Source: an uncultured Sphingomonadales bacterium
GTDB lineage: Bacteria; Pseudomonadota; Alphaproteobacteria; Sphingomonadales; Sphingomonadaceae
Assembly: GCA_937129355.1 (NCBI GenBank)
Contig: CAKZNA010000151.1
Span: 1-39,811, forward strand
DNA: 39,811 nt
Reading direction: 5' to 3'
Under the pieces are notes generated by a model. That model searched no databases, was not told the origin of the DNA, and was given only the letters and a program-made list of their open reading frames with translations. Positions 10,016 to 12,107 of this stretch are shown here, piece after piece. Made by a program: the position numbers and the translations under genes. Every line of letters starts with the position of its first letter. Positions within the stretch are counted from its first letter, which is position 1.

Positions 10016-10495
10016 CTATAGCTGGCCGAGCATATGTTCAGCCGAGCTAACATTGAAATCGCCGGGTTCTTCGACATTCACATGCTCAACCTTACCGTCG
10101 TTTATGACGAGCGAGAAGCGTTGGCCCCGCGTCCCCATACCAAAACCCGATGCATCCATTTCCAGGCCGAGTGCCTTTGCAAAATCACCATTTCCATCTG
10201 CCAGCATTGTAATTGCGTCGGAACCGCCGCTTTGGTTCCATGCGCCGAGTACAAAGGCATCATTCACAGCTGTGCAGGCAATTTCATCAACGCCCTTTGC
10301 CTTTAGTTCATCTGCTTTTTCGACAAATCCCGGCAGATGTTTGGCTGAGCAGGTTGGTGTAAATGCGCCCGGTACAGAAAATAGCGCGATCTTCTTTCCA
10401 GCAAAATATTCACTAGCCTGCGTTTGCTGTGGGCCTTCATTGGTCGCTTTGACCAGCTTTACGTCAGGAATGCTGTCACCAACAGAAATTGTCAT
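10016..10495 (-). CDS. peroxiredoxin, Prx5/AhpE-like type
   Basis: The 159-residue protein is a cytosolic thiol peroxidase of the Prx5 group, reducing hydrogen peroxide and organic hydroperoxides. The peroxidatic cysteine is Cys49 in PGAFTPTCS. A threonine three residues earlier and the downstream arginine in GTRGQRFSLVI complete the usual active site. There is no second conserved cysteine after residue 73, so it is probably a one-Cys enzyme or uses glutathione/glutaredoxin. A ribosome site (AAGG) lies just upstream of the ATG. It is divergent from ahcY, with 214 bases between the start codons, and is terminated by a hairpin. Confidence 0.93.
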   Translation of the reverse strand: MTISVGDSIPDVKLVKATNEGPQQTQASEYFAGKKIALFSVPGAFTPTCSAKHLPGFVEKADELKAKGVDEIACTAVNDAFVLGAWNQSGGSDAITMLADGNGDFAKALGLEMDASGFGMGTRGQRFSLVINDGKVEHVNVEEPGDFNVSSAEHMLGQL

Positions 10496-10625
10496 TTTGG
10501 ATTACCTTTCGAGGAGTTTTCTTTTTGCGTGATGCGTTCGGATATGGAAGGCTTATGTGAGGCCTTATGTTTGCATTGGCAAGATGCCGCTCCATCATTT
10601 ATCGTGGATTGAAATATAATTACGG

Positions 10626-10645
10626 ATATAAAGCAATCTTTATAT
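10626..10645 (+). promoter_or_regulatory. perfect inverted repeat, candidate SahR operator upstream of ahcY
   Basis: ATATAAAG (10626-10633) and CTTTATAT (10638-10645) form a perfect 8-bp inverted repeat around a CAAT centre, 65 bases before the ahcY start. From memory, the ArsR-family regulator SahR, which senses S-adenosylhomocysteine in Proteobacteria, binds a dyad with these same arms upstream of ahcY and met genes in alphaproteobacteria. The match in sequence and location supports that reading; SahR itself is not in this window. It could also simply be a hairpin, but no T-run follows. Confidence 0.55.
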
Positions 10646-10671
10646 TTGATTTGAACTTCAGTCGCCGCTAG

Positions 10672-10694
10672 GGGAGGCGCATTCCAAACCTCCC
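10672..10694 (+). other. hairpin in the ahcY leader
   Basis: GGGAGG (10672-10677) can pair with CCTCCC (10689-10694) around an 11-base loop, 15 bases before the ahcY start. It lies just ahead of the GGAG ribosome site at 10703-10706. It may affect translation, but I could not fit it to a known riboswitch. Confidence 0.35.
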
Positions 10695-10709: not shown

Positions 10710-12107
10710 ATGACTGTGTCCTTCAATGACTATGTAATTGCCGACATCGGCCTTGCCGATTTTGGCCGTAAAGAGCTTGATATTGCCGAAACCGAAATGC
10801 CCGGCCTGATGGCTTTGCGTGAGGAATACGGCTCTTCGCAACCTCTAAAGGGTGCACGTATTGTTGGCTCGCTCCACATGACGATCCAAACCGGCGTGCT
10901 TATCGAAACGCTTGTTGCTTTGGGCGCTGAGGTTCGCTGGGCAACCTGCAATATCTTTTCAACACAGGATCATGCCGCGGCTGCAATAGCGGCTCAGGAT
11001 ATCCCGGTATTCGCCGTTAAGGGTGAGAGCTTGGCAGATTATTGGGACTATGTTGGCCGCATCTTTGATTGGGGCGACATTACATCTAATATCATTCTGG
11101 ATGATGGCGGCGATGCTACGGCATTTGCTCTTTGGGGGGCGAAGCTGGAGCGCGGTGAAGAGTTTGCTGCACCAGAAAATGATGAAGAAGTCGAAATGCA
11201 ACGCGCCGTGAAAGAGTTTATCGCTCGCAAGCCCGGATATTTGACCGAAACAGTCAAAAATCTTCACGGCGTTTCGGAAGAAACTACGACCGGCGTTCAC
11301 CGCCTATATGACATTTCGAAGAAGGGCGAATTGCCATTCCCCGCTATCAACGTGAATGATAGCGTGACCAAATCAAAATTCGACAATCTGTATGGTTGCC
11401 GTGAATCGCTGGTCGACGCGATCCGCCGCGCAACAGACGTTATGTTATCAGGTAAAGTTGCGTGTGTCGCCGGTTATGGCGACGTTGGCAAAGGTTCCGC
11501 TGCTTCCCTGCGTCAGGGCGGTGCCCGCGTTATGGTGACAGAAATTGATCCAATATGTGCGCTACAGGCTGCAATGGATGGCTATGAAGTTGTGAGCATG
11601 GATGAGGCCGTTGCGCGCTGTGACATTTTCTGCACTGCGACCGGTAATGCAGATGTTATCACCGCGGAACATATGAAAAATATGAAACCGATGAGCATCG
11701 TTTGCAACATCGGTCACTTTGATAGTGAGATCCAGATTGGCGCTCTTTCCAACTATAACTGGGATGAAATCAAGCCGGGTACCGACATGGTGACATTCCC
11801 CGATGGCAATAAAATCCTGATCCTTGCGAAAGGCCGCCTGGTCAATTTGGGTTGCGCAACCGGCCACCCTTCTTTCGTCATGTCTGCAAGCTTTACCAAT
11901 CAGGTGCTGGCGCAGATTGAACTATATACCAAGGGCGACGAGTATAAGAATGAAGTCTACGTATTGCCTAAGCATCTCGACGAAAAAGTTGCGATGCTGC
12001 ATTTAGCAAAATTGGGCGTAACGCTTAGCAAGTTAGATGAGAAACAGGCAGGCTATATCGGCGTGCCAGTTGATGGTCCCTTCAAACCGGACCACTATCG
12101 CTACTAA
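10710..12107 (+). CDS. ahcY: adenosylhomocysteinase
   Basis: AhcY splits S-adenosylhomocysteine into homocysteine and adenosine, relieving product inhibition of all SAM-dependent methyltransferases. The 465-residue protein is full length and contains the substrate region [27 protein letters not shown], the [20 protein letters not shown] motif, the NAD-binding [12 protein letters not shown] loop, the [13 protein letters not shown] block and the C-terminal PFKPDHYRY tail needed for the tetrameric active site. ATG 10710 is preceded by GGAG (10703-10706). The leader carries the SahR-like dyad. A terminator directly follows, so it is probably transcribed alone and separate from divL. Confidence 0.98.

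Follow-up and report, generated by a model that had tools for sequence, protein, structure and literature searches.

A predicted SahR operator ahead of ahcY and its three-site regulon in an uncultured Sphingomonadales bacterium

Which regulator acts at the inverted repeat standing ahead of ahcY in this genome, and on which gene does it act? SahR is an ArsR regulator that responds to S-adenosylhomocysteine (SAH); it recognizes a 20-bp palindrome and has sahR, ahcY, metH, metF and metK as its core targets, and its regulon has been found in 7/7 Sphingomonadales genomes (PMC4239095). A sequence-only reading of the window (the whole 39.8-kb stretch of DNA that was analysed) had claimed a perfect dyad about 65 bases ahead of the ahcY start. 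The dyad is present at 10626-10645, where the 20 bases ATATAAAGCAATCTTTATAT form two perfectly paired 8-bp arms with a 4-nt spacer, and 64 nt separate its end from the first base of the ahcY start codon, ATG (10710). The features of the locus are listed below.

10016..10495, minus strand: divergent gene for a Redoxin-family peroxiredoxin, sharing a common intergenic region with ahcY
10626..10645, no strand assigned: predicted SahR operator, ATATAAAG-CAAT-CTTTATAT, a perfect dyad conserved at ahcY in 19/19 genus members
10646..10651, plus strand: predicted -35 of ahcY, TTGATT, directly abutting the dyad, in a block strongly conserved in the genus
10667..10674, plus strand: predicted -10 region of ahcY, GCTAGGGG, with the hexamer TAGGGG at 10669-10674 and a spacer of 17 nt
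10710..12107, plus strand: ahcY, S-adenosylhomocysteine hydrolase, 465 aa, the proposed regulated gene (TIGR00936, PF05221)

The identity of ahcY rests on TIGR00936, matched at 566 bits (cut-off 498), together with the match to PF05221. As is typical of a SahR operator, 10626-10645 is a 20-bp palindromic site lying 5' of its target gene. The window holds no other match to the dyad pattern with up to three mismatches, and shuffled sequence gives a mean of 0.11. An Rfam covariance-model scan of the window at gathering scores returned tRNA only and no SAH, SAM-SAH or SAM-alpha riboswitch, and a riboswitch in the window was rejected on these grounds.

In order to place the dyad in its genome, the whole assembly (2.87 Mb in 312 contigs) was searched for it. 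Allowing one mismatch, the search returned exactly three copies, two perfect and one with a single mismatch, against 0.02 one-mismatch copies and 0.0004 perfect copies expected from the assembly's own base composition. The ahcY site is one of the perfect copies. The other (C261:9725-9744) lies 9 nt before a sahR-type gene that heads a sahR-metF-metH run, and the one-mismatch copy (C183:1597-1616) lies 29 nt before metK. Ten more matches in the assembly all carry three mismatches, and a reversed-pattern control returned 11; a wider regulon in this genome was rejected because the ten do not exceed that control. The sahR gene (C261:8711-9715) encodes 334 aa with an ArsR-type HTH (HTH_5, PF01022, residues 13-56) and a methyltransferase domain (Methyltransf_11, PF08241, residues 153-254, 84 bits) in which the glycine-rich methyltransferase motif I, VLDIGTGTG, is intact. 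Next in the same orientation come metF, a first metH gene for the homocysteine-binding part, a GNAT acetyltransferase gene and a second metH gene for the B12 part, an arrangement in which the acetyltransferase gene divides metH in two (L019:3539-7905, minus strand).

These results bear directly on the sequence-only reading, which had expected an ArsR-family regulator coded elsewhere and had proposed a genome scan for further dyads near methionine-cycle genes. The regulator is found on C261 and the further copies stand before the sahR-metF-metH run and metK; the SahR homologue and the additional dyads, whose absence that reading had taken as grounds for abandoning the idea, are thus both present. 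The assignment of the dyad to SahR made in that reading is supported by these findings. A site preceding the regulator's own gene is of the autoregulatory type. We infer that the dyad is the SahR motif from its occurrence before the genome's own sahR. Judged from sequence, the three sites are the published SahR core regulon of ahcY, sahR-metF-metH and metK, and they represent a clean and complete SahR regulon in a sphingomonad relative, with three sites and one regulator, all of them at SAM-cycle genes.

The dyad is conserved well beyond this genome. Each of the 19 genus members searched has it at ahcY, 56-98 nt from the start, with a single mismatch in one genome and none in the other 18, and the ahcY upstream regions of three other families of the order contain it with 0-3 mismatches. 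Two genus members (L040 and L041) have an extra half-site, AAAGCAATC, adjoining the ahcY dyad in inverse orientation. In a family sample of 151 genomes, 118 have at least one dyad with up to one mismatch, and the reversed-pattern control matches in two. Operator and regulator co-occur across these genomes: with presence of SahR defined as a best hit at E<=1e-40, two fragmentary hits counted as present and the tally made by hand from two tables, SahR is found in 117/118 genomes with the dyad versus 17/33 without it (16/33 lack SahR; Fisher p = 1e-11). The single genome with a dyad and no SahR hit (G056) is assembled in about 380 contigs, and its sahR may be missing from the assembly because of this fragmentation. 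Among 73 sites found with the pattern, 28 are at ahcY or in the common peroxiredoxin-ahcY gap, 27 at sahR and 17 at metK; six of the 28 are nearer to the divergent peroxiredoxin gene within the common gap, as checked for L056. The one remaining site is a one-mismatch dyad (L137, G140:C1:704190-704209) downstream of a cupin/JmjC-like gene and away from ahcY, sahR and metK, which may be an extra target or a chance occurrence.

Two readings of the dyad dispense with SahR control of ahcY alone. The ahcY dyad contains TATAAA/TTTATA, similar to -10 elements, and might be an AT-rich palindrome present by chance, or promoter-related sequence, in either case lacking a dedicated regulator. The tiny number of perfect copies expected in the assembly, the conservation of the dyad in every genus member searched while the sequence 5' of it is not conserved, and its tracking of SahR across the family refute this reading, to which we assign next to no probability. 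The dyad could conceivably also act on the divergent peroxiredoxin gene, or on this gene and ahcY together, since it lies in the intergenic region that they have in common; this region is conserved in relatives, where the pairing of the two genes recurs. We consider this highly improbable. The other two copies of the dyad, at sahR-metF-metH and metK, have no peroxiredoxin gene beside them; the operator keeps a fixed position relative to the ahcY promoter and lies 130 nt from the peroxiredoxin start; the peroxiredoxin side of some relatives appears by eye to have its own promoter beyond the operator; and we found no evidence for the peroxiredoxin gene as a member of the regulon.

Promoters were predicted from conserved sequence rather than mapped. 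At ahcY, the sequence 5' of the dyad is not conserved among relatives, TTG directly follows the dyad in 15/21 family sites, and GCTA occurs 21 nt further on in 10/21. The resulting layout (TTGATT, 17 nt, TAGGGG) fits the consensus RpoD boxes of Caulobacter, TTGaCgS / GCtANAWC (PMC8144410). A promoter suggested by a consensus scan at 10576-10605 was rejected because the sequence there is not conserved in the genus, and the TTGATT/GCTA pair was preferred. Placement differs at the other two targets. A TTGAC-like box precedes the sahR dyad by 5-9 nt, and the dyad covers the spacer and has the -10 inside its right arm. The sahR dyad is only 5-11 nt from the ATG across the family (in this genome, C261:9716-9744, L002), and the sahR mRNA is therefore predicted to be probably leaderless throughout the family. 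At metK, TTGC and CTA boxes are upstream of the dyad, which would lie at or just after the predicted start site. Given these differing placements, SahR would block three different steps, and the gene-specific arrangement suggests that repression may differ in degree among the three promoters. Where the operator sits in each promoter was worked out here and may be new to the description of the system.

The ahcY placement is the least typical of the three for steric repression, with the operator upstream of the predicted -35 and centred near -45, and it allows the reading that SahR does bind the dyad but acts at ahcY as an activator or dual regulator from a site at about -45 beside the -35. The recurrence of TTG and GCTA after the operator in the family sites noted above puts it upstream of the likely ahcY promoter, and, by eye, the same promoter layout seems to be retained in dyad-less ahcY leaders. 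Against activation, published SahR is described as a repressor whose targets are switched on by SAH, an ArsR dimer is expected to overlap the -35 when bound to its site, and the placements at sahR and metK suit plain repression. Activation therefore seems unlikely to us, if less remote than a peroxiredoxin target.

The 10626-10645 dyad is thus very probably the operator by which SahR controls ahcY, and an ordinary example of a circuit already described. The sequence basis for this reading comprises the operator, the regulator gene, the three-site regulon, the conservation and the co-variation of operator and regulator described below; the placement relative to RNA polymerase comes from predicted promoters, and the SAH signal and repression are carried over from published work on other SahR proteins. 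SahR, an ArsR-family winged-helix domain fused to a methyltransferase-like domain, would bind the palindrome beside the -35 as a dimer, as its family and the palindrome imply, and would hinder RNA polymerase at ahcY. Accumulating SAH would occupy the methyltransferase-like domain and cause SahR to let go, and its release would permit expression of ahcY, sahR-metF-metH and metK, by which SAH would be cleared and methionine and SAM regenerated.

Seventeen genomes have SahR but lack the standard dyad. In most of them an altered site, often still palindromic, occupies the usual position before sahR, as in G145 (ACTTAAAG-N4-CTTTAAGT) and G077 (ATATAAGC-N4-GCTTATAT), and in several the ahcY site shows an alteration of this kind too. 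Operator and regulator co-vary by this comparison of sequences, the dyad before sahR having diverged where SahR has diverged. Taxon-specific changes in SahR motifs are on record (PMC5343134). A set of diverged SahR proteins at 43-47% identity is accompanied by a changed operator of the AAAGACTT.. or ACTTAAAG type before sahR (L260, L263, L265, L271, L273), and apparent half-matches are seen before ahcY in the same set (L186, L188-L191).

Outside the window, the sampled genomes of six genera in the family lack the dyad at ahcY, and the leader there has a conserved hairpin of about 30 nt around GCRYGGAGCCCCGGC. This conserved block lies downstream of the usual -10 in dyad-less ahcY leaders. A covariance model finds the hairpin in 30/401 family genomes, all within the six genera, and in no other family in an order-wide draw of 401 genomes. 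Every match located against genes precedes ahcY, bar one extra weak match in G045 (C3:226207), which lies inside coding sequence and was dismissed as chance. With the same model, the 151-genome sample has the hairpin in 11/33 dyad-less genomes and 0/118 dyad genomes (Fisher p = 1e-8). Five loci are given as examples; others exist.

L158:2919-2965, minus strand: leader hairpin, ahcY leader
L159:1420-1466, plus strand: leader hairpin, ahcY leader
L160:2929-2975, minus strand: leader hairpin, ahcY leader
L177:2919-2965, minus strand: leader hairpin, ahcY leader
L216:1486-1532, plus strand: leader hairpin, ahcY leader

All 29 of the 29 distinct versions fold as a hairpin. Cognate arms pair at a mean of -14.2 kcal/mol, against -12.6 for non-cognate arms, and none of 20,000 re-pairings did as well, in a test that is inflated by related sequences. 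RNAalifold detected no covariation in the leader hairpin, and a pair count on the hairpin model alignment was not above its shuffles; the covariation tests thus disagree, with arm re-pairing alone positive. No Rfam family matched the leader hairpin at gathering scores in a scan of 14 ahcY loci, all from genomes lacking a SahR hit. Matches at E<=5 were weak and lay outside the leader. A pseudoknot of UGGAG with CUUCA was rejected, as a simple hairpin accounts better for the conserved block. Leaders with neither dyad nor hairpin occur at ahcY in G101 (L157), G102 (L161), G147 (L164), G164 (L163), G092 (L166), G057 (L167), G179 (L180), G112 (L182) and G064 (L178).

On a tree of the AhcY protein, the hairpin needs four changes and is placed among dyad-bearing relatives. 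SahR is retained in several hairpin genomes, where the dyad preceding sahR is altered, and the swap may therefore concern ahcY alone. We tentatively hypothesize that ahcY switched its regulatory device, six genera having lost the SahR operator and gained a hairpin that is a candidate cis-regulatory RNA, perhaps responsive to SAH or a related metabolite. Just as guardedly, the dyad in the window could be regarded as the ancestral-looking alternative to the leader hairpin, with most genera using the SahR operator. As a new regulatory RNA, the candidate hairpin is a lead and not a demonstrated case. With the operator lost at ahcY and the hairpin in its place, it would offer a protein-to-RNA regulatory swap that is testable on one gene.

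Among known systems, SAH and SAM-SAH riboswitches likewise put ahcY or metK under SAH-responsive control, but they are RNA elements, none of which is in the window. SamR of Xanthomonadales, a distant SahR homologue (about 30% identity), controls methionine and SAM genes through a 24-bp palindrome, ATC-N10-GAT, and has no ahcY target. The dyad in the window does not fit that site, and a SamR-type site was rejected because ATATAAAG-N4-CTTTATAT stands at ahcY instead. SahR of Desulfovibrio alaskensis (Deltaproteobacteria) shares the regulator family and core targets of the present system, with SAH as effector. In the original work on Desulfovibrio SahR (Environ Microbiol), repression is reportedly relieved by SAH. 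Alpha- and deltaproteobacteria have slightly different operator sequences (PMC4239095), and the experiments were made in D. alaskensis. In Ensifer aridi, sahR is a predicted repressor gene of 1023 nt that seems to be autoregulated (PMC8877191); the present SahR has 334 aa. The closest counterpart is the alphaproteobacterial SahR regulon (RegPrecise; PMC4239095), with the same regulator family, a 20-bp palindrome and the targets sahR, ahcY, metF, metH and metK, from which the present case differs in nothing of substance.
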